The position numbers and the translations under genes were made by a program. A DNA stretch of 64,000 nucleotides from Acidimicrobiales bacterium (GTDB lineage: Bacteria; Actinomycetota; Acidimicrobiia; Acidimicrobiales; GCA-2861595), in contig DATAIT010000009.1 of assembly GCA_036262515.1 (NCBI GenBank), positions 1-64,000 of the forward strand, written 5' to 3'. Shown piece after piece: positions 1 through 24,321 of this stretch. The notes below the pieces were generated by a model. It was not told the DNA's origin. It was given only the letters and a program-made list of their open reading frames with translations, and ran no database searches. Numbering within the stretch: position 1 is the stretch's first letter; each line of letters starts with the position of its first letter.

Positions 1-398
1 CGCTCTCCGCGACCTGACGGTAAGGCCAGCCTCGGCCGACGGGCGCGCCGATTGCCGGGTATTTGTTGCCTCCGCCAGGAGTCGGGAGGCAGGTCGCGGT
101 GGCGCCACCGGACCGATCTGGAAATACGGAGCGCCGCCTCGGCGGAGGGCGACCAAGAAGCCCTGGCGGGCTTCCTGATCCAGTGTGCCGCCGGACGCCC
201 CCCGGGCCGTCAAGGCTGCCCCTCCGGGCGGCCGCCGGCCGGCCTTGACCGCCCTGGTCCCCCGCGGGCACCGGCGGGTCCTCGGTTCAGACCGCCGAAG
301 GTTCCTGGTGGAGCTCGGTTAGAGAGGATAACTGGGCCGCTTTTGGTGCCGATTTTGAGGCAAAACCGCAGGTCAGCACACTGCTAAGCGAAAAACGC
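1..398. other. No gene recognised; two hairpins
   Basis: I see no convincing gene here. Two inverted repeats stand out: a 7-bp perfect stem with a 4-nt loop at 157-174, and an 8-bp repeat with arms at 209-216 and 242-249. A small A/T-richer patch at about 345-395 contains the inverted pair TTTTG/CAAAA. The stretch directly abuts the broken tRNA-Arg at 399-436 and may be junction DNA of an inserted element. Confidence 0.4.
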
Positions 399-436
399 TC
401 CGTAGTCAGATGCTCTATCCGTTGAGCTACGAGCGC
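399..436 (-). pseudogene. 5' half of tRNA-Arg(ACG), broken after the anticodon loop
   Basis: Read on the minus strand from 436, this is a normal tRNA 5' half: a 7-nt acceptor strand, TA at positions 8-9, a D arm closed by GCTC/GAGC, the anticodon 5' strand TCTGA and the loop CTACGGA (anticodon ACG). Homology stops at the end of the loop. The expected TCAGA strand, T arm and acceptor 3' strand are absent from the remaining 398 bases to the window edge. Anticodon loops are known crossover sites of tyrosine recombinases, so this may be one side of an integration junction; simple truncation is equally possible. Confidence 0.7.
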
Positions 437-479
437 GGGCAGCGCCGAGTGTAGGCGACGAGGTCTTCGTGGGATCGCT

Positions 480-571
480 TGGCGGAGAGGGAGGGATTTG
501 AACCCTCGGACCCAGTTTCCCAGGTCAACTCATTAGCAGTGAGTCCGATTCGGCCGCTCTCGCACCTCTCC
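480..571 (-). tRNA. tRNA-Ser (anticodon GCT), CCA encoded
   Basis: The acceptor stem GGAGAGG (571 downwards) pairs with CCTCTCC (490-484). The discriminator is G and a genomic CCA follows at 482-480. The anticodon loop carries GCT, the long variable arm is typical of serine tRNAs, and the T arm contains GGGTTCAAATCCC. All class II serine features are present. Confidence 0.95.
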
Positions 572-793
572 CGATGGCCAGTCTAGGTCCTGCTCCCGGC
601 CTCCGTCCCGAGCCTGGAGGTCCTCAGTTCAGGCCCATCGTGGGCAGGACGGAGGCGAACTACCGACGGTGCCGGATGGGCAACCCGGCCGCCTCGCCAC
701 GCCGCTGGTGTCGACCCGCGAACGATCGAACCACGGCAGCGGACCGGACCCCGGGCGGCGACCTCGATCCCACGATGGGCGAGAACGGAGCCC

Positions 794-1183
794 TCAGGGC
801 AGCCTCGTCGCGCCCTTCAACTGGGTGCCGGGCTCCTCGTCCTCGTCGAGCACGGACTGCGAGCCGCCGGCCACGGCGTCGGCGTCGAGCGCCTCCCGCA
901 GTGGCGGGAACGAGCCGTCCTCGTCCTCGGCCGCCGGGCTTTCCGGCCGGCGATCGGGCCCCGATCCGATGTGCTCGTCCACGACCACCTCCCCGTCCTT
1001 CGCCGTCCCGGGGGCGGGCCCCGACGGCGGCGCCTCGGGGGAAGGCCATTCGCCGCCGCCCGCCGCGACCTCAGGGTTCTGGTTCTGCTGGGCGATCACC
1101 TTGTCGGCTCCGTCACCCACGTTGGTTGGCAGGGGCACGCTCGTCACCGTGTCTACTCGGGGGTCGCTCGTCGTCTCGTCCAT
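794..1183 (-). CDS. Small acidic hypothetical protein
   Basis: A 129-residue protein starting at ATG 1183 (begins MDETTSDPRVD). It is rich in Asp, Glu, Pro and Gly, has no hydrophobic segment or signal peptide, and is probably disordered and cytoplasmic. The first 35 residues (through VIAQQNQNPEV) look better defined than the low-complexity remainder. A longer frame upstream is possible, but its extra residues look unlike protein. It is divergent from glgX and shares a short upstream region with it. No function can be assigned. Confidence 0.5.
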   Translation of the reverse strand: MDETTSDPRVDTVTSVPLPTNVGDGADKVIAQQNQNPEVAAGGGEWPSPEAPPSGPAPGTAKDGEVVVDEHIGSGPDRRPESPAAEDEDGSFPPLREALDADAVAGGSQSVLDEDEEPGTQLKGATRLP

Positions 1184-1280
1184 GCCGGGACTGTTCCCCG
1201 CCGAGGCCACGGCGACGCATGTCGCCCAGGCGCCACCGCGACGCATGGGCGACTCCCGGCACCTGCGTTAGCGTGCCCCG

Positions 1281-3374
1281 ATGCAGGTCTGGCCGGGACA
1301 GCCCTATCCCCTCGGCGCCACCTACGACGGTGCCGGCACCAACTTCTCCGTGTTCTCCGAGGTCGCCGACCGGGTGGAACTGTGCCTGTTCGACGAGGCG
1401 GGCGAGACCAAGATCACGCTGCCGGAGGTCACCGCTTTCTGCTGGCACTGCTACCTGCCCGGCATCGGCCCGGGGCAGCGTTACGGCTTCCGGGTCCACG
1501 GACCGTACGATCCGGCGGCAGGCAATCGGTGCAACCCCGCCAAGCTGTTGCTCGACCCCTACGCCAAGGCGGTCGAGGGTCAGGTCAAGTGGGCCGAAGC
1601 GGTGTTCCCTTACCGCTTCGGCGCCCCGGACACCATGAACCGGGCGGACAGCGCGGCCTACATGCCCAAGGCGGTGGTCACCAATCCGTGGTTCGACTGG
1701 GCCAACGACCGCCCGCCGGTGTCGCCGTACCACGAGGCGGTCATCTACGAGGTGCACGTGAAGGGCCTCACGATGCGCCATCCGGGCGTGCCCAAGGAGC
1801 TTCGCGGCACCTACGCCGGCATCGCCCATCCGGCGGTGATCGAGTACCTCCAGATGCTCGGGATCACCGCGGTGGAGCTGCTCCCCGTGCACCAGTTCGT
1901 CCACGACTCACACCTCGAGTCGAAGGGACTCCGCAACTACTGGGGCTACAACTCCATCGCCTACCTGGCGCCGCACAACGAGTACAGCGCCACCGGCCAG
2001 GCCGGCCAGCAGGTGCAGGAGTTCAAGCAGATGGTGAAGACGCTGCACGAGGCGGGCATCGAGGTCATCCTCGACGTCGTCTACAATCACACGGCCGAGG
2101 GCAACCACATGGGCCCGGTGCTGTCGCTCAAAGGCATCGACAATGCCGGGTACTACCGCCTGGTCGACGACGACAAGCGGTACTACTACGACACCACCGG
2201 CACGGGGAACAGCCTCGACATGCGGCACCCGCACGTGCTGCAGCTCATCATGGACAGCCTGCGGTACTGGGTCACCGACATGCACGTGGACGGGTTCCGC
2301 TTCGACCTCGCAGCCACGCTGGCCCGCCAGTTCCACGAGGTCGACCGCCTGTCGGCCTTCTTCGACCTCATCCAGCAGGATCCCGTGGTCAGCCAGGTGA
2401 AACTCATCGCCGAGCCGTGGGACCTGGGCGAGGGCGGCTACCAGGTGGGCAGCTTCCCCCCGTTGTGGTCGGAGTGGAACGGGAAGTACCGCGACCACGT
2501 GCGGGACTACTGGCGGGGCGAGGACAAGCTGCTCGACGAGTTCGCATTCCGGTTCACGGGCAGCTCCGACCTGTACGAGTCCGGTGGCCGCCGCCCGTTC
2601 GCCAGCGTCAACTTCGTGACCGCCCACGACGGCTTCACCCTCGCCGACCTCGTCTCGTTCAACGACAAGCACAACGAGGCCAACGGCGAGGACAACAACG
2701 ACGGCGAAAGCCACAACCGGTCGTGGAACTGCGGCGTCGAGGGACCCAGCGACGATCCTGCGGTCATCGAGCTGCGGGCCCGGCAGATGCGCAACTTCCT
2801 CGCCACGCTGATGCTGTCCCAGGGCGTGCCCATGCTGCTCGGCGGTGACGAGATGGGTCGTACCCAGCGCGGAAACAACAACGCCTACTGCCAGGACAAC
2901 GACGTCTCCTGGTACGACTGGGACAACCAGGACGGCGAGCTGGTCGCCTTCACGCAGCGGCTCATCAGCCTGCGCAACACCCATCCCGTGTTCCGGCGGC
3001 GCCACTTCTTCCAGGGCCAGCCGCTCCACGGCGCCGGGGTATCGGACATCGCCTGGTTCCGGGCCGACGGGACGGAGATGTCGGACATCGATTGGCGCGA
3101 GGGATACGCCAAGACCATCGGCGTGTTCCTGAACGGCGACGCCATCCCCGATCTCGGCGCCCGGGGCGAGCGGATCACCGACGACTCCTTCCTCGTGCTG
3201 TTCAACGCCCACTTCGAGCGGGTCGAGTTCGTGCTCCCCGCCGAGGAGTTCGGCGAGCGCTGGGTGAAGGTCCTCGACACGGCCGACGCCTTCGACGAGG
3301 GCCTGCAGCTGAAGGCGACCGAGGCGCTGGACGTCGAGAGTCGCTCGCTGGTCCTGCTCCGACGTGGCGGCTGA
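1281..3374 (+). CDS. glgX: Glycogen debranching enzyme GlgX/TreX
   Basis: A 697-residue GH13 isoamylase-type enzyme that hydrolyses alpha-1,6 branches of glycogen. It has an N-terminal CBM48-like domain (about 10-110) and a TIM barrel carrying the conserved regions: DVVYNH, the nucleophile D342 in GFRFDLA, the acid/base E378 in LIAEPWDLG, and D450 in TAHDG. Length is normal for GlgX. The next gene starts 11 nt inside its end and is treY, followed by treZ, so here the enzyme most likely acts as TreX, making linear maltodextrins for trehalose synthesis. Confidence 0.96.
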   Translation: MQVWPGQPYPLGATYDGAGTNFSVFSEVADRVELCLFDEAGETKITLPEVTAFCWHCYLPGIGPGQRYGFRVHGPYDPAAGNRCNPAKLLLDPYAKAVEGQVKWAEAVFPYRFGAPDTMNRADSAAYMPKAVVTNPWFDWANDRPPVSPYHEAVIYEVHVKGLTMRHPGVPKELRGTYAGIAHPAVIEYLQMLGITAVELLPVHQFVHDSHLESKGLRNYWGYNSIAYLAPHNEYSATGQAGQQVQEFKQMVKTLHEAGIEVILDVVYNHTAEGNHMGPVLSLKGIDNAGYYRLVDDDKRYYYDTTGTGNSLDMRHPHVLQLIMDSLRYWVTDMHVDGFRFDLAATLARQFHEVDRLSAFFDLIQQDPVVSQVKLIAEPWDLGEGGYQVGSFPPLWSEWNGKYRDHVRDYWRGEDKLLDEFAFRFTGSSDLYESGGRRPFASVNFVTAHDGFTLADLVSFNDKHNEANGEDNNDGESHNRSWNCGVEGPSDDPAVIELRARQMRNFLATLMLSQGVPMLLGGDEMGRTQRGNNNAYCQDNDVSWYDWDNQDGELVAFTQRLISLRNTHPVFRRRHFFQGQPLHGAGVSDIAWFRADGTEMSDIDWREGYAKTIGVFLNGDAIPDLGARGERITDDSFLVLFNAHFERVEFVLPAEEFGERWVKVLDTADAFDEGLQLKATEALDVESRSLVLLRRGG

Positions 3375-6090
3375 GCCCGCCGCCGGCGAGCCGGCTGAGC
3401 CCGGGCCGTGGGCCACCTACCGGGTGCAGCTGTCACCGACGTTCACGTTCGACGACGCCGCTGCCATCGCCGGGTACCTGGCCGATCTCGGCATCACGCA
3501 CCTCTACGCGTCGCCGGTGCTCCAGGCCGCACCCGGCAGCACCCACGGCTACGACGTGGTCGACCACCACCGCGTCAACGTGGAGCTCGGGGGCGAGGCC
3601 GGCCATGCCCGGATGTGCGACGCCCTCGGTGCCGCCGGTCTGGGCCAGGTCCTCGACGTGGTCCCCAACCACATGGCCATCGGCGGGCCCGAGAACGCGT
3701 GGTGGTGGGACGTGCTTGAGAACGGGCCGGCCAGCGTGTACGCAGCCTACTTCGACGTCGACTGGGATCCTCCCGAGTTCAAGCTGCGCCACACCGTCCT
3801 CCTGCCCATCCTCGGGGACCACTACGGACGGGTGCTCGAAGCGGGCGAGCTGAACCTGCGCCGGGAAGGTGGCTCGTTCACCGTCCACTACCACGACCAC
3901 GTCGTCCCGGTCGCGCCCAGAACGATCGACCGCCTGCTGGTGGCGGCGGCCGAGGACTGCGGCTCGGCCGAGCTGGAGTCGATCGGCGCCGCCTTCGGTC
4001 GCCTCCCCCCGGCGACGGCCACGGATCGCGACAGCGTCCGCGAACGCCACCGCGACAAGGAGGTGCTCCGCGCCCGGCTCTCGGCGTTGTGCGAGGAGGA
4101 GCCCGAGCGGGCTGCCTCGATCGACCGGCGCGTCGAGGCGATCAACGCCGACTGCGACGCCCTCGACGCCCTCCTCGACCGCCAGAACTACCGCCTGGCC
4201 TTCTGGCGCACGGCCGGCCGCGAGCTCGACTACCGGCGGTTCTTCGACATCAACACGCTGGTGGGCGTGCGGGTGGAGGACCCGCAGGTGTTCGACGACA
4301 CGCACACCCTCCTGCTGGAGTGGCTCGACAAGGGCGTGATCGACGGGCTGCGCATCGACCACCCCGACGGACTGCTCGATCCCGAGGGCTACCTCGACCG
4401 GCTGCACGACGCCACGGGCGGCAAGTGGACCGTCGTCGAGAAGATCCTCGAGCCCGGCGAGCAGCTCCCCGAGTCGTGGCCCGTGGCCGGCACCACTGGG
4501 TACGACTTCCTCAGCCGAGTGGGGGGCCTGTTCGTCGACCCGGCCGGCCGCGACGCGCTCCTCGCCACCTACACCGGGATCACCGGCCGGCCGGCCGACT
4601 TCGACGAGGCAGTGCTGGCCAACAAGCACCTCGTCCTCCGGGACGTCCTGGCCGCCGACCTCAACCGCCTCACGGCCCTGTTCGTCCAGGTGTGCGAGCG
4701 TCACCGGCGCTACCGCGACTACACCCGCCACGAGCTCCACGAAGCACTCCGCGAGGTCCTGGCCTGCTTTCCCGTGTACCGGACGTACGTACGGCCCGCC
4801 GACGGCACCGTGCGCGACGCCGACGTGGCCCGTGTCGAGCACGCCGTTTCGCTGGCCGTCGCCCGCCGTCCGGACATCGACGGTGAGCTGTTCACCTTCC
4901 TCGCCGACCTCCTCCTGCTCCGCCGCCGCGGGGAAGCGGCGGCGCCCGGCTTGCCGGCACCGGTGGGGGAGGTGGAGGCCGAGCTGGTCGCCCGGTTCCA
5001 GCAGGTCACGGGGCCCGTGATGGCCAAGGGCGTGGAGGACACCACGTTCTACGACTACGTGCCCCTCGTGTCGCTCAACGAGGTAGGCGACTCCCCCGGT
5101 CATTGGGGCACGACCGTCGACGAGTTCCACCGCAGCTGCGCCGAGGCGGCCCGGACGTGGCCCCGATCGATGCTGGCCACCAGCACCCACGACACCAAGC
5201 GGAGCGAGGACGTCCGGGCCCGGCTGCACCTGCTCTCGGAGATGCCCGATCGGTGGACTGAGGCGGTGGAGCGCTGGCGGGCCATGAACGTCCGGCACCG
5301 CGCCGGTCCCGATCTGCCCGACTCCAACATCGAGTACCTGCTGTACCAGACGCTGGTGGGCGCGTGGCCGCTTCCCCTGGACCGCGCCGCCGCCTACATG
5401 GAGAAGGCGGCCAAGGAGGCGAAGTCGCAGACGTCGTGGATCGATCCGGACCTCGACTACGACGCCGCTCTCCGGGCGTTCGTGGACGGCGTCATGGGCG
5501 ACGAGGCCTTCCAGGCGGACCTGGCGGTGTTCGTGGCCCCGCTCGTGGCCCCCGGGCGGGTGTCCTCCCTGGCCCAGGCGCTCGTGAAGCTCACGGCGCC
5601 GGGCGTGCCGGACACGTACCAGGGGACCGAGCTGTGGGACCTCAGCCTGGTGGATCCCGACAACCGCAGGCCGGTCGACTATGCGACGCGCCGGCGGCTC
5701 CTGGCCGAGCTGGCCGGGATGGACGCCCGTTCGGTGTGGGCCCGCGCCGACGAGGGCCTTCCCAAGCTGCACGTGGTACGGGAGGCGCTGCACCTGCGAC
5801 AGCGGGTCCCGGAGGCGTTCGGTGCCACCGCCGACTACGTGCCCGTCGCTGCGGGCGGTCAAAAGGCGGCGCACGTCGTGGCGTACTGCCGGGGCGGCCT
5901 GGCCGTCACCGTCGTGCCCCGACTCGTCCTCGGCCTCGGTCGCGACTGGCTCGATACCGTGGTCGACCTGCCGCCCGGGAGGTGGGGCAACGTCCTCACC
6001 GGGGATGACATCGCCGGCGGCTCCGCCGCCGTCGCCGACCTGCTTGCATCCTTCCCGGTGGCCCTGCTCGAGCGATCGCCCGACGCCTGA
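3364..6090 (+). CDS. treY: Malto-oligosyltrehalose synthase TreY
   Basis: A 908-residue GH13 enzyme that turns the reducing-end alpha-1,4 bond of maltodextrins into an alpha,alpha-1,1 bond. Visible signatures are the N-terminal YRVQLSPTFTFDDA, DVVPNHMAIG, the nucleophile D332 in GLRIDHPDG, the acid/base E363 in KILEPGE, and D610 in the family motif THDTKRSEDVR. It starts at GTG 3364, overlapping glgX by 11 nt, which implies translational coupling. TreZ, encoded downstream, releases the trehalose. Confidence 0.96.
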   Translation: MAAEPAAGEPAEPGPWATYRVQLSPTFTFDDAAAIAGYLADLGITHLYASPVLQAAPGSTHGYDVVDHHRVNVELGGEAGHARMCDALGAAGLGQVLDVVPNHMAIGGPENAWWWDVLENGPASVYAAYFDVDWDPPEFKLRHTVLLPILGDHYGRVLEAGELNLRREGGSFTVHYHDHVVPVAPRTIDRLLVAAAEDCGSAELESIGAAFGRLPPATATDRDSVRERHRDKEVLRARLSALCEEEPERAASIDRRVEAINADCDALDALLDRQNYRLAFWRTAGRELDYRRFFDINTLVGVRVEDPQVFDDTHTLLLEWLDKGVIDGLRIDHPDGLLDPEGYLDRLHDATGGKWTVVEKILEPGEQLPESWPVAGTTGYDFLSRVGGLFVDPAGRDALLATYTGITGRPADFDEAVLANKHLVLRDVLAADLNRLTALFVQVCERHRRYRDYTRHELHEALREVLACFPVYRTYVRPADGTVRDADVARVEHAVSLAVARRPDIDGELFTFLADLLLLRRRGEAAAPGLPAPVGEVEAELVARFQQVTGPVMAKGVEDTTFYDYVPLVSLNEVGDSPGHWGTTVDEFHRSCAEAARTWPRSMLATSTHDTKRSEDVRARLHLLSEMPDRWTEAVERWRAMNVRHRAGPDLPDSNIEYLLYQTLVGAWPLPLDRAAAYMEKAAKEAKSQTSWIDPDLDYDAALRAFVDGVMGDEAFQADLAVFVAPLVAPGRVSSLAQALVKLTAPGVPDTYQGTELWDLSLVDPDNRRPVDYATRRRLLAELAGMDARSVWARADEGLPKLHVVREALHLRQRVPEAFGATADYVPVAAGGQKAAHVVAYCRGGLAVTVVPRLVLGLGRDWLDTVVDLPPGRWGNVLTGDDIAGGSAAVADLLASFPVALLERSPDA

Positions 6091-6117
6091 GCCGCGGCGC
6101 CGAGTGTTCGCTGGACG

Positions 6118-6172
6118 TCCTTTCTTTGGCCGCTACACGACACGGAGTGTCGCCAAATGGGAAAAGAAGGCC
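6118..6172 (-). repeat. Dispersed hairpin element, copy A
   Basis: Read on the minus strand this matches copies at 48121-48165 and 49358-49408. It has a 5' tract CTTCTTTTCCC, a palindromic core CGACAC-N3-GTGTCG (6138-6152), a conserved TGTAGCGG 3' of the core, and a closing AAAGAA. The outer stem here is TTTGG/CCAAA. It lies between treY and treZ, pointing against transcription, about 90 nt before the treZ start. Confidence 0.7.
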
Positions 6173-6263
6173 ACCTGCTGAACGGCGGATCGACGCCCCG
6201 CCGTCGCCGACCGCCTGGGAGGGCGGCGGGTTGCCGTCCTCGGATCGGGGAAGGGTGGCTCAG

Positions 6264-16875: not shown

Positions 16876-17157
16876 TCAGTACTTGAACCCGCAGAGCAGG
16901 TGACCGAGCTTGATGAGGGCGTACGGCTTCTTGTTCTGGGCCGACTCGGCCCGCGAACCGCTGTAGGCGTTGGGGATCCCCATGACACCGCCCCCGCCCT
17001 GCTCCTCGGGACGCGGTGTCGACGTGAGGGCGGCGGGCATGGTGGGAGCGGGGATGATCGACGTCCGCTCCTCGGGCTCCGCCTCGAACTCGACCAGCTC
17101 GCCCGAGGGGCTCTCGAACTCCTCCCGGACGTCGTCCTGCACGGCCGCGTGTGCCAA
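16876..17157 (-). CDS. Small hypothetical protein at the end of the subtilase set
   Basis: A 93-residue protein, probably starting at TTG 17157, with AGGGAG upstream. The first half is acidic, then comes a Pro/Gly-rich linker (EEQGGGG) and a basic-hydrophobic tail (KKPYALIKLGHLLCGFKY) that looks like the structured or functional end. It has no signal peptide or membrane helix and I do not recognise the family. It lies on the same strand as the I9-like and subtilase genes, 144 nt downstream, so membership of that unit is possible but unproven. Confidence 0.45.
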   Translation of the reverse strand: MAHAAVQDDVREEFESPSGELVEFEAEPEERTSIIPAPTMPAALTSTPRPEEQGGGGVMGIPNAYSGSRAESAQNKKPYALIKLGHLLCGFKY

Positions 17158-17241
17158 TCCCGGCTCCCTTCACTCGCCGCCACTATCGGCTGAACTTCGT
17201 CTAGTATCGCACCTAGTTCCGCCCAGGGGACCCCCCAAATC

Positions 17242-17276
17242 GTGCGCCGTGCGCCGTGCGCCGTGCGCCGTGCGCC
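17242..17276. repeat. Five tandem copies of a 7-bp unit
   Basis: GTGCGCC is repeated exactly five times, followed by GTGG. It lies in the 144-nt gap between the I9-like gene and the 93-residue gene. Perfect heptanucleotide repeats can change in number by slippage. Here it is outside the coding frames I accept, so any effect would be on expression. Confidence 0.8.
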
Positions 17277-17301
17277 GTGGGGTCGAGGTCCTGCTCGCCG
17301 C

Positions 17302-17577
17302 TCAGAGGCGCGGCGGCGGAGGATCGGGCGTCTGCGGGGGCGGCGGGTCCTGCGGTTGCTGGGCGAGGTGCTCGATCAGCGGCTCGATGTGCAGGAACGC
17401 CCCGAGCTCGGCGCGCAGGCGCTCGACCGCATCGCCCGCCGCGCTGATCTGGGCGCGGCCCGACATCTCCCCGACCACGGAGATTCCTTCGGTGGAGCGT
17501 AGCTGGTCGAGCCAGTCCTCCGGGGCCACGGTCCGCTGGCTGCGGCGGACGGCGACGATGTACTGCGGGTCGGCCAT
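17302..17577 (-). CDS. Stand-alone I9/subtilisin-propeptide-like protein
   Basis: A 91-residue protein. Residues 1-70 follow the beta-alpha-beta-beta-alpha-beta order of inhibitor I9/subtilisin propeptides: QYIVAVR, PEDWLDQLRST, ISVVGEM, RAQISAA, DAVERLRAELG, FLHIEPLIEH. The last strand resembles the propeptide end that enters the protease active site. A Pro-rich tail follows. It is encoded 28 nt after a subtilase gene, so it is probably an inhibitor or folding chaperone for one or both neighbouring subtilases. The fold is inferred by eye from pattern, not from a search. Confidence 0.6.
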   Translation of the reverse strand: MADPQYIVAVRRSQRTVAPEDWLDQLRSTEGISVVGEMSGRAQISAAGDAVERLRAELGAFLHIEPLIEHLAQQPQDPPPPQTPDPPPPRL

Positions 17578-17605
17578 CGAGGCCGAGGATACGGCCGCTG
17601 CTCGG

Positions 17606-19138
17606 CTACTTGACCACCAGCTTGGCGGCCGACGGGATGCCCCGGCCCTGGTAGCGGGGGGCCAACCCGATGTCCCGGCTCACCTGGCGGAGGAGCGAAC
17701 GGGCTTTCTCGGCACGGGTGAGGTCGCGGGGCAGTTGCCGGTAGGCCGGCGAGGCGGACAGCACGGCGGCCAGCAGGCCGCACGCCGCCGGGCTCGCCAT
17801 CGAGGTGCCGTCCATCGGGGCGTAGGGCGCCACCATCCCGAAGCGCTCCGGGACGGGGGCGATGATGCCCACGCCCGGGGCGGCGCAGTCGATCTCCGGC
17901 CCGAAGCAGCTGAAGTTGGCGAGATACAGGTTGTCGTCGCCGAACTTCTCCGGCTCTTGCGGGAGGCGGATGGATGCCAGCGAGCCGGGCGGCCCCCACC
18001 CCTCCAGCCCGAGGGCGGACACGGCGATGCACTCTGGAAACGCCGCCGGGAACTCGACCGGACCGGCGCTGTTGGCGGCTGCGCAGACGCACAGGGTGCC
18101 CCGCTCGCTGGCGTCGACGATGGCGTCGTGCTCGATCTCCGAGGGCTGCGGTGCCCCGAGACTCATGTTGACGAGGTCCGCCCTGCGGGTGCGGGAGAGT
18201 TCGTCGATGGCGTTGGCGATGTCGCCCTGGTTGGCACCCGCGTCGGGTCCGGGGAACACGCGGGCGACGATCAGGTCGACGCCGGGTGCGATCCCGCCGG
18301 GTCGGCGGGAGGTGGCCGATGGACGGGCACCGATGGTGCCGCAGACGTGCGAACCGTGGGAGGCGACGTCGCGCCCGGCACCGGCGGTCGTGGCGTGGGC
18401 GGCGTTGATGAAGGCGCCGGCGTCGACGACGTGGCGGAGGTCGCGATGGGGACCGGCACCGGTGTCGGCGACACCGACGGTGATGCCCTCCCCCCACTCG
18501 TGCACGGGGGCCGACAGGCCGAGGGCCTTGTGCCACCAGGCCACGGTCCCGGTGTCCGGCAGCGGGGGACAGGTCACGGTGACCCCGCTGGCCGGCCCCC
18601 GCACCACCATCGTCCAGTGGTCGCCGGCCGGCAGCACGACCAGCGCAGCCGGCGTCCATGCGCCGGAGAAGCTGAACGTGGCTTTCCCCGTGCTCCCGGT
18701 GCGTGCTGACAGCGTGGTCTGGGTCCCGCCCGCCGAGCGCAGGACGAGCATGGCCTCGGCGTTCGCCAGCGGTGCCGCCGCTCCGCCCGCGACGGTGATC
18801 TCGAAGGTGGTGCCGGCTCCGGCCAGCGCCGCCCCGGGCGGGGACGAGCGGCCCGCCCGGGCCAGGTCCAGAGGAAGCGGGGGGACGGGGAAATGCAGGA
18901 TCTCCGGTTCGATCAGCACGTCCGGCCCGGCCAGCGCCGCCTTCGCCGCCACCTCCGCGGGGTTGGCGTCGAAGACGATGACCTCACGGGCCGTCTCGTC
19001 GGCGGGAGCGAGCCGGCTCACCACCTCGGCGCCGGGTTCGAGGAGCAGGAACGACTGCTCGGCGGCGGCCCGCGACGCCCGCTTCTCGACGTCGTGGAAC
19101 TTCCCCGCTCGGCGGTTCGAAAGCACGTATCTGGCCAC
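17606..19138 (-). CDS. Subtilase (S8) with beta domain, no signal peptide
   Basis: A 510-residue subtilisin-like serine peptidase. Residues 1-85 resemble a propeptide (RYVLSNRR to VLIEPEILHF), about 108-190 look like an Ig-like beta domain, and the S8 domain follows with catalytic D225 (GVADTGAG), H261 (SHGSHVCGT), oxyanion N356 (AAANSAG) and S446 (DGTSMASP). No export signal is visible, so it is probably intracellular. Start GTG 19138 lies 26 nt after the other subtilase gene; the I9-like gene follows 28 nt downstream. Divergent from the CHAT/ECF operon. Confidence 0.9.
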   Translation of the reverse strand: MARYVLSNRRAGKFHDVEKRASRAAAEQSFLLLEPGAEVVSRLAPADETAREVIVFDANPAEVAAKAALAGPDVLIEPEILHFPVPPLPLDLARAGRSSPPGAALAGAGTTFEITVAGGAAAPLANAEAMLVLRSAGGTQTTLSARTGSTGKATFSFSGAWTPAALVVLPAGDHWTMVVRGPASGVTVTCPPLPDTGTVAWWHKALGLSAPVHEWGEGITVGVADTGAGPHRDLRHVVDAGAFINAAHATTAGAGRDVASHGSHVCGTIGARPSATSRRPGGIAPGVDLIVARVFPGPDAGANQGDIANAIDELSRTRRADLVNMSLGAPQPSEIEHDAIVDASERGTLCVCAAANSAGPVEFPAAFPECIAVSALGLEGWGPPGSLASIRLPQEPEKFGDDNLYLANFSCFGPEIDCAAPGVGIIAPVPERFGMVAPYAPMDGTSMASPAACGLLAAVLSASPAYRQLPRDLTRAEKARSLLRQVSRDIGLAPRYQGRGIPSAAKLVVK

Positions 19139-19164
19139 GGTGGTTTCCCTGTCCGTCGGGTCTG

Positions 19165-20451
19165 TCAGTCGACGAAGACGCCGCAGCCGTCGGGGCCCGG
19201 GGTCGCGTCCGCGAGGACCCGGGCGAGCGCATCGCGCGCCGGCATCGGCGGGTCGGTGGACGTCATGGCGGCGGCGATGACGCCGGCGACGCGCGGGGCG
19301 GCGAACGACGTGCCGCTCCATGTGGCGGTGGCGTGCGGGAAGTCGATGGCGCCCGGCGGCACGGGCATGGTGCCGAGGACGTAGGTGCTGCGGCGGTCGA
19401 CGCCGTACGCACAGGCCCGCACCCACGGTCCCCGGTTGGTGAAGTCGGCGGCGACCAGCGCGTCGGGCGGCCCGTGGACGGCGGCGACGCCGACGACGTG
19501 CTCGAAGCCCTCCATGCCACCGAAGGCGGCCGGCCACATCCTGCGCTCGGGAACCCCCGCCTTCTTCGCCATCTCGAAGTCGTTGCCCGCCGCCGCCACG
19601 TACACGGCCCGTGACCGCTTCCCCAGCTCGGTGAGCGCCTTGGTCAGTGCCTGCGGCGGCAGGTCGTCCTCCGAGGGCCCGGCCAGCGACAGGTTCACGA
19701 TGTCGGCCGACCGTTGGCGCAGGAGGTCGAGGGCGAGCTCCACGTCGTCGACCACGCCGACCTCGTCGAGGGTGACCTCGGGGTCGAGCTCGGTGTCGGG
19801 GGCGAGCTGGCGGATGACGCCGGCGACGAACGTCCCGTGCCCTCCGAACACGGAGCGGATCTGGTGCATGGCGTCGTCGACGAGGGTGTCCACGTCGTCG
19901 CCGTCGTCGACGTAGTGCTGGGCGAGGAGTGGGTGTTGATGCGCGCTCGAGGCGACGAACCCGGTGTCGAGGACCGAGACGCGCACGCCCTTGCCGCTGC
20001 CAGGGCGCACGGATCGCTCCGGCTCGACCTGGCCTCGACCGCCGTCGTGGGGGAGGTCGCCGGGTCCGAACTTGAAGACGGGAGCGCCCACCAGCACGTG
20101 GGTCAAGGTGACAGCCGCCGCCGCGCCGTCGATGCCGTCGACCGATTTCCTCACCGTGTCCAGCGCAGCCCTGGCGTCGGTGCGTCCGGCAGCCAGCCGG
20201 TAGCGGCGCAGGCCGAGCCCCTCCAGCAGCCGGCCCTCGCGGCTGTGGCAGCGACTGCGCTTGGCGCCGACCTGTTCGAGGGCCGCACCGAGGACCAGCT
20301 CGAAATCGGTGTCGACGAGCAGCTCGTCCGGGCGGTACAGGTACTTGCTGTTCCCCGACTCGTGCCAGGCGACCCGCCCGTCCTTCACGATCGCGTCCCA
20401 CACGATGTCAGCGACGTCCGGTGCCTTGCCGTCGTTCCCGTCCGGTCTCAT
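19165..20451 (-). CDS. Subtilase (S8), no signal peptide, first of a tandem pair
   Basis: A 428-residue subtilisin-like peptidase. The catalytic residues are D162 (SVLDTGF), H205 (GGHGTFVAG), oxyanion N290 (AAAGND) and S382 (WSGTSFAAP). Residues about 36-120 may be a divergent propeptide (YLYRPDELLV to AAVTLTHVL). No N-terminal signal peptide is present. I chose ATG 20451 behind a G-rich ribosome-binding stretch; the frame stays open upstream but runs across the CHAT promoter region. It heads a minus-strand set with a second subtilase and an I9-like protein. Confidence 0.9.
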   Translation of the reverse strand: MRPDGNDGKAPDVADIVWDAIVKDGRVAWHESGNSKYLYRPDELLVDTDFELVLGAALEQVGAKRSRCHSREGRLLEGLGLRRYRLAAGRTDARAALDTVRKSVDGIDGAAAAVTLTHVLVGAPVFKFGPGDLPHDGGRGQVEPERSVRPGSGKGVRVSVLDTGFVASSAHQHPLLAQHYVDDGDDVDTLVDDAMHQIRSVFGGHGTFVAGVIRQLAPDTELDPEVTLDEVGVVDDVELALDLLRQRSADIVNLSLAGPSEDDLPPQALTKALTELGKRSRAVYVAAAGNDFEMAKKAGVPERRMWPAAFGGMEGFEHVVGVAAVHGPPDALVAADFTNRGPWVRACAYGVDRRSTYVLGTMPVPPGAIDFPHATATWSGTSFAAPRVAGVIAAAMTSTDPPMPARDALARVLADATPGPDGCGVFVD

Positions 20452-20514
20452 GCTCCCCCCTCGTGGGTGTCCAGGCGGCGGCGTGGTGCCACAGCCGGCG
20501 CTTCTAACATCTCT

Positions 20515-20540
20515 GTCACGATGCGCCAATCGGCAGTTTC
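20515..20540 (-). promoter_or_regulatory. Candidate ECF-type promoter for the subtilase genes
   Basis: On the minus strand, GAAAC (20540-20536) and CGTGAC (20520-20515) are 15 nt apart, resembling the AAC/CGT core pattern of many ECF sigma promoters. It lies about 65 nt upstream of the first subtilase start, in the 131-nt gap shared with the CHAT operon. The match is short, so this is tentative. Confidence 0.25.
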
Positions 20541-20582
20541 GTACATCGGCGATCGCGGCGCACCCCGGTTCGGCCGACGGGA

Positions 20583-23225
20583 GTGACCGCCGTCGGGGAC
20601 GACCTCTGCGGCGAGGCATCCGCCGCCATCGAGCTGGCCACCGCCGAGCCCGGGCGGGCCCGCCAGGTGGCCGAGGACGTCCTGGCCCGGGCCCGGCGGG
20701 CCCGTGTACCGACGGCCGTCTCCATGGCCGAGCAGGCCCTCGGGCTGGCGGCACGCGAGGTGGGCGAGATCGCAGGGGCCGTGCGCCACCTTCGCAACGC
20801 CGTCCGGGTGGCCGAGAGGGCCGGCCTGGTCACCCGCGCCGCCGAGGCGCGCGTGAGCCTCGCCCCGACCCTCCAGTACGCCGGGCAGGCCGCACCTGCA
20901 CTGCGTGAGGCCGACCGGGCGGCGGCCGTGCTGCGGGGCCCGGCCCTGGCCCGCCTGCAGATGCAGCGGTCGGGCATCCTCGTGCGGCTCGGCCGGACGG
21001 AGGAGGCACTCGACCTCCTCGCCCCCGCGGCCGCCACCTTCCGGCGCACCGGCGACGTGGTGTGGGAGGCGCGGCTGCTCAACCTCCGCGGCATCCTCCA
21101 CGGCAATCGCGGCGCCTACGCCGCGGGTGAGCGGGACTTCCGCCGCGCCGGTGAGCTGTTCGCAGCGGCCGGCGACGAGGTGGCCGCCGCCCACATGGTG
21201 TGCAACCGGGCGTGGCTGAGCGGGCGCAGGGGGGAGGTGCCGGCCGCTCTCGCCCTCTACGACGAGTCGGAGGCGCGCCTGCGGGCGCTGGGCGTGCCCT
21301 TCACCGTCCCTCTGGTCGACAAGTGCGAGGTCCTCCTCGCCGTCCACCTCGGTGCCGAGGCCCGGTCGACCGCAGAAGCGGCAGTGCGGGAGTTCGCGGC
21401 GGGAGGGATGGCGTCGGACGTGCCGGAGGCGCAGCTCAAGGTGGCCCACGCCGCCCTGCTCGAAGGCGACTCCGCCGCTGCGGCGGCCGCCGCCGGGCGG
21501 GCGGCGGCCGCCTTCGCTCGCCAGGGCCGGCCCGGCTGGGAGGCGATGGCACGATGGGCCGCTGTCCGGGCCCGCTGCGAGACGGCGCGGCCGACGGCGG
21601 CGACCCAACGGGCCGCAGTGGCCGCCGCCGAGTCCCTCGACGCCGCTGGGCAGGTCGTGGTCGCCCTCGACGCCCGTCTGGTAGCGGCCCGGATCGCCCT
21701 CCAGCGCCGCAAGGTGGCCGAGGCCGAGTCGCTCCTCGCCCCCGTTCGGGTGCGGCGGGGCACGCCCGCCGAGCTGCGCACGCGCACGTGGTACGCCCAG
21801 GCGCTGCTGCGCACGGCCCAGGGCGACCGGTCCGGCGCCGAGCGGGCGCTGCGTGCCGGCTGGCAGGTGCTCGACGAGTACCGGGCCAGTCTCGGGGCCA
21901 CCGAGCTGCGCGCCAGCGTGTCGGGTCACGGCCAGGACCTGGCCCGGCTCGGCGTCGCCCATGCGCTCGAGGCCGGCCGGCCGGACGGCGTGCTGCGGTG
22001 GGTCGAGCGGGCGCGGGCTGCCGCCCTGCGCCTCCGCCCGGTGCGGCCCCCGGACGACGACGCGCTGGCCCACGATCTGGCCGAGCTGCGCGAGGTCGCG
22101 GCCGAGCTGGCCAAGGCCCACCCGCCGGGTGCGGCGGCCAAGCTCATGAGCCGGCAGGTGGCGCTCGAGGAGGCGGTGCGCCGCCGGGCCCGCCAGGCCG
22201 CCGGCAGCGGCGCGGTCGACGCCGTGCCGACCCTTCCCCGCCTGGCTTCGGCCCTCGCCGAGCGCGTGCTTCTCGAGATCGTCCAGGTGGACGGCTTCCT
22301 CCACGCGCTGGTGGTTCGGGACGGTCGAGCCGTGCTGCACGCCATGGGGCCTGCCGCAGCGGCCGAGCGCGAGCTGGAGCAGCTGCGGTCCGCGCTCCGC
22401 CGCCTGGCCCACCGGCGAGGATCGGCGGCGTCGCTCCAGGCTGCCGTCGCCGCCGCTGCGGCCGCCGGCGAAGGCCTGGAAGCGCTCCTCATCGCGCCGG
22501 TGGCGGCGGACATCGCTGACCGGTCGCTCGTCATCTCGCCTCCGGGTCGTCTGTATGCGCTGCCGTGGTCGGTGCTGCCGTCGTGCCGCGGGCGGCCCCT
22601 GTCGGTGGTGCCGTCCTCGGCCCTGTGGCTCCGGACCCACGAGGCGGCCGCCAGCCTGTCCGGCGACGGTCGGGCGCCGCTCCTCGTCGCCGGGCCCGGG
22701 CTGGCCCATGCCGCCGAGGAGGTCGAGCTCCTGCGCGGGACGTACGCGGCGCCGACCGTCCTCGTGGGCGAGGCGGCGACGGCCGGGGCGGTGGGCGGAA
22801 ATCTCCACGGGGCCGGGCTGGCCCACATTGCGGCCCACGGGTCCTTCCGGGCCGACAACCCGCTGTTCTCGTGCCTGCGCCTGGCCGACGGGCCGTTCAC
22901 CGTGTACGACCTGGAGGCCCTGGGGGCCGCCCCGCCGGTGCTGGTGCTGTCGGCGTGCGAGTCGGGCCTGTCCGCCGTGCGCCCGGGCGACGAGCTGATG
23001 GGGCTGGCCTCGGCGTTGTTCATGATCGGCACGCGTGCGCTCGTGGCCAGCGTGGGTCCGGTGCCCGACGACGCCACCAAGGCGCTCATGGTCCGGTTCC
23101 ACCAGCGGCTCGCCAGCGGGTCGTCCCCGTCACAGGCCCTGGCCTCGGCCGGAGGCGGAGACCGGCCGACGACCGACCCGGCGTGGGTGGCGGCCGCCTC
23201 GTTCCTCTGCTTCGGGGCCGGCTGA
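20583..23225 (+). CDS. TPR-CHAT caspase-like protease
   Basis: An 880-residue protein. Residues 1 to about 470 are Ala-rich helical repeats of TPR type. The C-terminal part (about 550-880) is a CHAT domain with the expected dyad: H752 in HIAAHGSFRADNPLFSCLRLADG and C792 in VLSACESGLS. CHAT proteins are clan CD cysteine proteases related to separase and caspases, often activated by partner binding through the repeats. Start GTG 20583. The ECF sigma gene follows after 17 nt and two subtilases are divergent, suggesting a regulated intracellular proteolysis module. Confidence 0.92.
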   Translation: MTAVGDDLCGEASAAIELATAEPGRARQVAEDVLARARRARVPTAVSMAEQALGLAAREVGEIAGAVRHLRNAVRVAERAGLVTRAAEARVSLAPTLQYAGQAAPALREADRAAAVLRGPALARLQMQRSGILVRLGRTEEALDLLAPAAATFRRTGDVVWEARLLNLRGILHGNRGAYAAGERDFRRAGELFAAAGDEVAAAHMVCNRAWLSGRRGEVPAALALYDESEARLRALGVPFTVPLVDKCEVLLAVHLGAEARSTAEAAVREFAAGGMASDVPEAQLKVAHAALLEGDSAAAAAAAGRAAAAFARQGRPGWEAMARWAAVRARCETARPTAATQRAAVAAAESLDAAGQVVVALDARLVAARIALQRRKVAEAESLLAPVRVRRGTPAELRTRTWYAQALLRTAQGDRSGAERALRAGWQVLDEYRASLGATELRASVSGHGQDLARLGVAHALEAGRPDGVLRWVERARAAALRLRPVRPPDDDALAHDLAELREVAAELAKAHPPGAAAKLMSRQVALEEAVRRRARQAAGSGAVDAVPTLPRLASALAERVLLEIVQVDGFLHALVVRDGRAVLHAMGPAAAAERELEQLRSALRRLAHRRGSAASLQAAVAAAAAAGEGLEALLIAPVAADIADRSLVISPPGRLYALPWSVLPSCRGRPLSVVPSSALWLRTHEAAASLSGDGRAPLLVAGPGLAHAAEEVELLRGTYAAPTVLVGEAATAGAVGGNLHGAGLAHIAAHGSFRADNPLFSCLRLADGPFTVYDLEALGAAPPVLVLSACESGLSAVRPGDELMGLASALFMIGTRALVASVGPVPDDATKALMVRFHQRLASGSSPSQALASAGGGDRPTTDPAWVAAASFLCFGAG

Positions 23226-23242
23226 CGCCTACGATCGCCCTC

Positions 23243-23818
23243 GTGAGCCCGGCTGACGACGGAGCGCTGGTCACGGCCGCAGCCGACGGCGACCAGGCGG
23301 CGTGGGACGCCCTGGTCAAGCGCTTCAGCGGGCTGGTGTGGTCCATCGCCCGGTCGCACCGGCTGTCGCAGGCCGACGCCGCCGACGTCTCGCAGACGGC
23401 GTGGCTGCGCCTGGTCGAGAACCTCGGCCGCCTCCGTGATCCCGACAGGGTGGGTGCCTGGCTGGCCACCACCAGCCGGAACGAGTGTCTCCGCATCATC
23501 CGCCTGTCGGGCCGGATGGTGCCCACCGACCTCGACGCCGACACCGACCTGGGCGCCGGCGACGCCCAGGTCGCCCCGCTCGACGCCGCCCTCCTGGCGG
23601 GCGAACGCGACAGCGAGCTGTGGCGGGCCTTCGCAGGGATCAGCGAGCGGTGCCAGGGCCTGCTGCGGCTTCTCATCGCCGATCCTGCGCCCAGCTACGA
23701 GGAGGTCGGCGCCATCCTCGACATGCCGGTGGGAAGCATCGGCCCCACCCGCGCCCGATGCCTCGAGCATCTCCGGCGCAGAGCCGGTATCACCGGCGCC
23801 GTTCGCGGCTCTGAGTGA
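23243..23818 (+). CDS. ECF-type RNA polymerase sigma factor
   Basis: A 191-residue sigma-70 family protein with region 2 (DQAAWDALVKRFSGLVWSIARSHRLSQADAADVSQTAWLRL and VGAWLATTSRNECLRIIR) and region 4 (SYEEVGAILDMPVGSIGPTRARCLEHLRR). GTG start 17 nt after the CHAT gene; its stop precedes the next gene's strong ribosome-binding site. No classical zinc or membrane anti-sigma factor is adjacent, so its control may lie in the CHAT protein or the following small protein. Confidence 0.94.
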   Translation: MSPADDGALVTAAADGDQAAWDALVKRFSGLVWSIARSHRLSQADAADVSQTAWLRLVENLGRLRDPDRVGAWLATTSRNECLRIIRLSGRMVPTDLDADTDLGAGDAQVAPLDAALLAGERDSELWRAFAGISERCQGLLRLLIADPAPSYEEVGAILDMPVGSIGPTRARCLEHLRRRAGITGAVRGSE

Positions 23819-23838
23819 GCGGGAGGAAGGAGGCAGTC

Positions 23839-24321
23839 GTGGCGGAGGACGTGCAGCATCCCGACGAGGCGGACCAGGAGCTGCTGGCGACGCTGCGCAC
23901 CGTCGTGCAGCTGGCCGATCCGGTGCCGGAGCGCGTGCAGGAGGCGGCCCGGGCGTCGTTCACGTGGCGCACGGTGGACGCCGAGCTGGCCGAGCTGGCC
24001 TACGACTCGCTTCTTGACGACGACCGGCTGGCCGGCGTGCGGGGCGACGAGGCGACGCGCACGCTCACCTTCGAAGGGCCCTCCTACACCGTCGAGCTCG
24101 AGGTCGCCGAGGAGGGCGACGGGCGCCGGCTGCTCGGCCAGCTGGTGCCGCCGGCGGCGGCCACGATCGAGGTCCGCCACTCCGGCGGGCTGCTGCGCCT
24201 GGGCGCCGACGAGGTCGGCCGGTTCTCGGCGACCGGGGTGGCGGCCGGCCCGGTGAGCCTGCGCTGTCAGGTCGCCGGCGCGGACGGCCCGCCCCTCCAC
24301 ACCGCCTGGGTCACCGTCTGA
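23839..24321 (+). CDS. Small protein coupled to the ECF sigma factor
   Basis: A 160-residue soluble protein starting at GTG 23839 behind a strong GGAGGAAGGAGG site. The N-terminal third is helical (VPERVQEAARASFTWRTVDAELAELAYDS); the rest is predicted beta-rich and Gly-rich with alternating hydrophobic residues. It has no membrane helix and no Cys cluster. I recall similar proteins beside CHAT and ECF genes in other actinobacteria. It may be an unconventional anti-sigma or an adaptor; this is inference. Confidence 0.75.
   Translation: MAEDVQHPDEADQELLATLRTVVQLADPVPERVQEAARASFTWRTVDAELAELAYDSLLDDDRLAGVRGDEATRTLTFEGPSYTVELEVAEEGDGRRLLGQLVPPAAATIEVRHSGGLLRLGADEVGRFSATGVAAGPVSLRCQVAGADGPPLHTAWVTV

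Follow-up and report, generated by a model that had tools for sequence, protein, structure and literature searches.

A separase-like TPR-CHAT protease and a candidate cleavable partner of an ECF54-type sigma factor in Actinomycetota

How is an ECF sigma factor controlled when its gene sits among genes for proteases? We addressed this question at one locus in a window of 64,000 nucleotides, the whole stretch of DNA that was analysed, from an Acidimicrobiales bacterium whose genome is a high-GC draft of 3.4 Mb in 129 contigs. An ORF check found all seven ORFs described in an earlier note on this DNA to be open, at the same coordinates. Pfam matches in the locus comprised one CHAT, one Sigma70_r2 and two Peptidase_S8 domains, and the remaining ORFs had no match. 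The gene for the subtilase S8a (19165–20451, minus strand, 428 aa) and that for the TPR-CHAT protease (20583–23225, plus strand, 880 aa) are divergent, with 131 bp between them (20452–20582). The ECF sigma factor gene (23243–23818, plus strand, 191 aa) starts 17 nt past the CHAT stop. The gene for p160, a 160-aa putative sigma inhibitor or partner (23839–24321, plus strand), lies within ~20 nt of the ECF gene or, from an alternative start at 23815, overlaps its stop. Behind S8a, the minus strand carries a second subtilase gene (S8b), a 91-aa I9-like ORF and an 88-aa small protein.

We searched 59 related genomes with the CHAT and p160 proteins, and all window proteins were then compared with the recovered loci by tblastn. 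S8a, CHAT, ECF and p160 were found together in about a dozen of the 59 genomes, and tblastn detected S8b and the I9-like protein in none of these loci. A species-level genome collection scanned with an alignment of the ECF protein yielded 80 actinobacterial loci, 55 of them fully flanked. Among the fully flanked loci p160 was present in 52/55, CHAT in 45/55, S8a in 43/55 and all three in 40/55; these counts describe the family and not an unbiased sample, the ECF profile having been built from module members. The module recurs across Actinomycetota. S8a adjoins CHAT in most relatives, and p160 adjoins the ECF gene in 74 of the 80 loci, often with a 4-nt overlap. Where a genome had ECF and p160 without an adjacent CHAT, a long CHAT match was located elsewhere in that genome (7/7). 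A phylogenetic profile over 197 genomes of the class, free of locus-based selection and with CHAT called at E<1e-60, placed p160 in 28 genomes, CHAT in 23 and both in 22, where 3.3 were expected (Fisher 1e-22). The 23rd CHAT genome had a p160 fragment beside CHAT at a contig end (L166). We concluded that the core consists of four genes (S8a, CHAT, ECF and p160) and not seven, and that their co-occurrence is far beyond chance. In all of the CHAT-less p160 loci of the class the ECF gene was still beside p160. That is, because this pair persists where CHAT and S8a are gone, ECF and p160 form the tightest, irreducible pair of the module.

The two S8 subtilases of the window scored 111.7 and 76.4 bits against PF00082, the lower score being that of S8a, which has its own N-terminal domain and a catalytic domain from about residue 150. 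By simple hydropathy, neither subtilase had a signal peptide-like or membrane segment, and such a segment was seen in 0/68 members of the S8a family. The earlier note's view of the CHAT, ECF and subtilase genes as one intracellular module was therefore borne out: the module is genuine and widely conserved, and CHAT and ECF co-occur with the subtilase S8a in related genomes, as in the 40 loci with all partners. In several S8a homologues the linker ahead of the catalytic domain contained long tandem repeats (L036:6673–8058, L040:1766–3319, L042:12139–13581, L043:7456–8979), with a unit that differs by lineage (NPVYA, TPVYA, HPASFA, TPYPGG). No fused ORF joining two core proteins was found in the first locus set. 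At L165:197–934, a weak, degenerate ORF resembling a fusion of sigma region 2 with p160 lies beside S8a and a contig-cut CHAT.

The sigma factor matched Sigma70_r2 (E 1.2e-12) and TIGR02937 (67 bits), and in the family alignment its protein ends in the motif GSIGPTR.RCL. According to a review (PMC8999054, citing Casas-Pastor 2021 for the ECF54 group), the conserved carboxypeptidase, subtilase and CHAT neighbours of this group led to the proposal that it is controlled by proteolysis and has no anti-sigma factor. Because the 40 full loci carry CHAT, a subtilase and a CarboxypepD_reg-like p160, the sigma factor is ECF54-type, group membership being judged by gene context only. That ECF54 genes occur together with CHAT, subtilase and carboxypeptidase-like proteins is already published (PMC8999054), and a search of the literature on CHAT with ECF and subtilisin found nothing beyond that paper. 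The neighbours reported there, actinobacterial like ours, are the same (CHAT, subtilase and a carboxypeptidase-like or carboxypeptidase-regulatory-like protein). The ECF54 literature names no substrate, whereas we point to p160 as the sigma partner and a candidate substrate. Since 33 of 62 p160 homologues weakly match a carboxypeptidase regulatory-like domain (CarboxypepD_reg, PF13620, at E<=1; best 7.5e-6; p160 of the window has no match), the published ‘carboxypeptidase’ is most simply p160, which would then, on its sequence, most simply be a regulatory-like domain and not a peptidase. What is new here is p160 as the constant partner of the sigma factor.

An AlphaFold2 model of p160 built from 62 sequences has helices at residues 8–25 and 31–63 followed by a seven-stranded beta domain that is modelled with confidence; the stretch at ~61–70 was of low confidence, and pLDDT in the linker was about 55. 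Foldseek and VIA gave matches confined to the beta domain (residues ~70–160), all of them immunoglobulin-like beta domains (top Z 9.5), and neither program matched the N-terminal helices to an anti-sigma structure. The model suggests that the beta domain is carboxypeptidase-regulatory-like. Mean column identity among the 62 p160 sequences was 26%, and a single column was invariant (62/62). This residue, Arg68 (codon 24040–24042, plus strand), is the predicted P1 of the site LAGVR/GDEA and lies in the linker, where it carries 3.6 bits and columns 58–66 and 70–73 carry at most 1.2 bits. The preceding residue (P2) was V, A, T, L, I or M (V in 44/62) and the following one (P1') was G, S or A in 59/62, so that the context is mostly V-R-G/S/A. 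Arg68 resembles a protease site, because it is an isolated invariant residue in a variable, low-confidence linker and is followed by a small P1'.

If CHAT cuts at Arg68, genomes that have lost CHAT should no longer be bound to keep the arginine. We gathered the p160 loci of the class and read the residue aligned to Arg68 in each protein. A relaxed search of five genomes (G142, G245, G158, G099 and G137) found no CHAT match beyond TPRs. Arginine was present at position 68 in 26/26 p160s with CHAT and in 2/6 without it (p = 0.0004); one further p160 copy, itself truncated, stands outside the 26. Counted per genome, the values were 22/22 with CHAT and 2/5 without (p = 0.003). The arginine was lost in G158, G099 and both G137 copies, all CHAT-less, and was retained in the CHAT-less genomes G142 and G245. 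The losses are limited to three CHAT-less families and hence to few lineages. Of the p160s that had diverged furthest (profile E above 1e-21), 5/5 with CHAT and 0/4 without carried arginine; because diverged CHAT-bearing proteins keep the residue, divergence alone does not explain its loss. The p160 of G242 is diverged and weakly aligned, and its arginine is the least certain. We regard this correlation between aligned residue and gene content as a strong lead, not proof.

Is CHAT a suitable enzyme for such a site? The CHAT domain matched PF12770 with 123.5 bits against a cut-off of 24. The catalytic dyad is at the positions the earlier note had assigned, His752 (codon 22836–22838, plus strand) and Cys792 (22956–22958, plus strand), and both residues were invariant in 51/51 CHAT homologues. 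The AlphaFold2 model (pLDDT 93.9) consists of a TPR superhelix (~1–540), a pseudo-caspase-like half and a caspase-like half. Separases and Csx29 were the closest solved structures by fold: VIA gave Z 25.6 for separase 5fc2 (2.9 Å over 307 residues, in the paired caspase-like part) and Z 27–29 for Csx29. When the CHAT domain alone was used in a sequence search of the PDB, only Csx29 was returned (E 1e-4). Separase and several clan CD families cut after arginine, and clan CD enzymes most commonly prefer a basic P1. Glu713 (invariant in 51/51) is part of the helix that follows the first strand (700–703), and the same region supplies the S1 acid or P1-Arg contact in gingipain-R and MALT1; by its position in the model, Glu713 is a plausible Arg-specificity residue. 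An S1 aspartate, Asp829, was rejected as a mark of Arg specificity: it is present in 44/51 module CHATs and is Ala or Thr in the other 7/51, whose p160 keeps Arg68. Both Glu713 and Asp829 are shared by another CHAT protein that this genome encodes outside the module. Specificity of CHAT for arginine is only plausible.

These observations suggest that, in a module of the ECF54 type, the sigma factor is controlled by a separase-like TPR-CHAT protease by way of p160, a cleavable partner; we give this reading an even chance. In the resting state the sigma factor would be bound by p160, with the N-terminal helices as the most likely contact. A signal read by the TPR part would activate CHAT, and CHAT would then cleave p160 after Arg68, within the linker that joins the helices to the beta domain. 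The freed sigma factor would transcribe a regulon that probably includes the module itself (S8a and CHAT), and the intracellular subtilase S8a would be a likely output or amplifier. What we observed is the conserved composition and order of the genes, the intact dyad, the linker position of Arg68, the invariance of this residue among the 62 sequences, the loss of the arginine in lineages that have no CHAT, and a fold like that of separase and Csx29. We infer the binding of p160 to the sigma factor, its cleavage, the activating direction, the signal and the role of the subtilase. The earlier note had likewise supposed that a proteolytic step releases the sigma factor, and such a step is the best reading of the new evidence, namely the invariant, CHAT-linked arginine in p160.

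The correlation alone cannot pick the protease, because the CHAT-less genomes are also without an adjacent S8a. S8a might itself cut p160 at Arg68, with CHAT acting upstream, for example by activating S8a; this would agree with the place of S8a in the core (43/55 full loci) and with the absence of both proteases beside p160 in the CHAT-less genomes. However, Arg68 is kept in loci and genomes that have CHAT without an adjacent S8a (L048, L068, L073, L074, L093, G035 and G237), and an Arg-P1 site suits the separase-like fold well. We therefore consider cleavage by S8a unlikely.

A different possibility is that Arg68 is not scissile. It could be a structural or docking residue, for instance one that touches CHAT or the sigma factor, with p160 serving as a co-activator or as a partner that is released uncut. 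Invariance alone fits a cut site and a contact equally, but the isolation of Arg68 in a variable, low-confidence linker before a small P1' is typical of protease sites, and the invariant CHAT dyad implies that catalysis matters. A non-scissile Arg68 seems to us improbable.

The published ECF54 proposal (PMC8999054) would require no anti-sigma step at all: the proteases would act directly on the ECF sigma factor, and p160 would be an adaptor or scaffold. Yet the invariant CHAT-linked arginine sits in p160, the ECF/p160 pair persists without either protease, and the reported carboxypeptidase would be this same regulatory-like protein. Direct proteolysis of the sigma factor appears to us quite unlikely.

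Control by cleavage of p160 would resemble a known system. Craspase relies on Csx29, which is activated by target RNA and then cleaves Csx30, so that CASP-sigma is no longer inhibited (PMC10028731). Craspase and the present module share a TPR-CHAT protease, an ECF sigma factor and a two-domain protein with a linker. They differ in that no Cas7-11/gRAMP, crRNA or CRISPR array was seen among the annotated neighbours of the module, and in that the module has an added subtilase, which Craspase is without. Csx30 is 565 aa long and p160 160 aa; cleavage of Csx30 falls between residues 427 and 429 and depends on no essential residue, whereas the p160 linker has an invariant arginine. The Csx29 equivalog model NF041237 gave the window CHAT 16.6 bits, below its cut-off of 300. 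We propose, by analogy, that the module works like the sigma-releasing arm of Craspase, yet is not a member of that system.

DdvA of Myxococcus xanthus (PDB 8rot, 8rw5) was among the CHAT matches by both sequence and fold. It pairs with the sigma factor DdvS, the likeness being a CHAT-domain protein tied to an ECF sigma factor. However, DdvA is titled a transmembrane anti-sigma factor. The CHAT protein of the module contains TPRs but no membrane segment, and a separate small protein takes the part of sigma partner. DdvS controls an antiphage island (PMC12288465). Separase (clan CD, C50) shares with the module CHAT a helical-repeat N-terminus and a paired caspase-like C-terminus, but it is a eukaryotic cohesin protease with a sequence identity of about 16% to the module CHAT.

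Taking these comparisons further, we tentatively suggest, with somewhat less than even confidence, that ECF54 modules are CRISPR-free switches of the caspase/separase type, in which a signal-gated TPR-CHAT protease would cut the unrecognised sigma inhibitor p160 at its invariant arginine and so start an intracellular programme of proteases, accompanied in some lineages by a contractile injection system; type III-E Craspase may be a CRISPR-recruited version of such a switch. Control of ECF54 factors has so far been an open guess, and our analysis names a candidate substrate (p160), cut site (Arg68) and protease (CHAT). If true, the Craspase logic of a protease paired with a sigma inhibitor is not confined to CRISPR and is common among actinobacteria. 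It would also bear on the way in which CRISPR systems came by such arms, and on the roles of bacterial separase-like proteases.

The spacer between S8a and CHAT holds a 28-bp block (20521–20548) that is 26/28 identical in a same-genus genome, where its distance to each of the two genes matches that in the window, which is consistent with shared divergent control. In about 10 other lineages a promoter-like motif, CAGAG[CT]-N16/17-TGATACA, was found upstream of CHAT or ECF, mostly by 22–51 nt (loci L042, L044, L052, L068, L074, L076, L098 and L122); it is absent from the window. Its frequency was about tenfold above background (0.9% of 330-nt windows), as enumerated on the very data that were scored, and the motif is an only suggestive hint of autoregulation in those lineages.

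At six loci of Micromonosporaceae type (Catellatospora, Allorhizocola and Rhizocola; L052, L053, L056, L061, L076 and L097, at about 60–6200 of each), CHAT is followed immediately, on the same strand, by genes of a contractile injection system: sheath, tube, CIS tube/LysM-like, baseplate hub and a Pvc16-like protein with a CarboxypepD_reg tail. Contractile injection systems of Streptomyces mediate cell death (PMC10066040). A Pfam search found no sheath gene in the source genome of the window, and a contractile injection system is for this reason not the general output of the module.

The genes flanking the locus are mostly housekeeping: YetF-like, diacylglycerol kinase-like, DUF3097, STAS and RsgA on one side, and pyridoxamine oxidase-like, periplasmic binding protein-like, PhoU/TrkA-C and MgtE on the other. 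A defence island was not evident around the locus, the sole weak match being RsgA as a GTPase. No PADLOC model called the core a defence system; its proteins gave weak family-level matches only, namely generic subtilase matches and a weak match of CHAT to BovA (E 7.5e-4). The earlier note had put forward, as a hypothesis, a role in regulated death, defence or stress proteolysis.

The three remaining genes, S8b (17606–19138), the I9-like protein (17302–17577) and the small protein (16876–17142), all on the minus strand, are lineage-specific neighbours outside the core. The earlier note had counted S8b and the I9-like protein as parts of the module, with two subtilases held by an I9-like inhibitor, and the adjacency of all seven genes and the common strand of these three would agree with that; but S8b and the I9-like protein are absent from the same-genus orthologous locus, the best relative of S8b, likewise accompanied by a small ORF of similar kind, is found outside the module in a different genome (G033), and conservation speaks against a seven-gene module, which we hold to be very improbable. 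Nor does the I9-like protein appear to be the controlling inhibitor, as the evidence points to p160 as sigma partner and CHAT substrate. The I9-like protein had no Pfam match at E<=1; it is probably a partner of S8b, and its I9-like assignment is weakly suggested by its size, its look and one relative. In that relative (L158:5197–6946), an S8b homologue is followed by an 81-aa ORF resembling the I9-like protein, possibly a stand-alone subtilase/inhibitor pair; BLASTP between the I9-like protein and this small protein was not significant, and the I9-like protein showed no other conservation. Between the I9-like and small-protein genes of the window lies a tandem heptamer, CGTGCGC x5.6 (17241–17279).

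The small protein is kept in the same-genus locus (73% identity over 66 aa), and another genome of the family has a diverged copy at a site apart from the module. Its C-terminus, ...KP[YG].L[IV][KR]LGH..CG, is shared by the window protein and those at L032:7690–7869 and L156:7392–7667. The gene for the small protein adjoins RsgA in two of the genomes and has a different location in the third.
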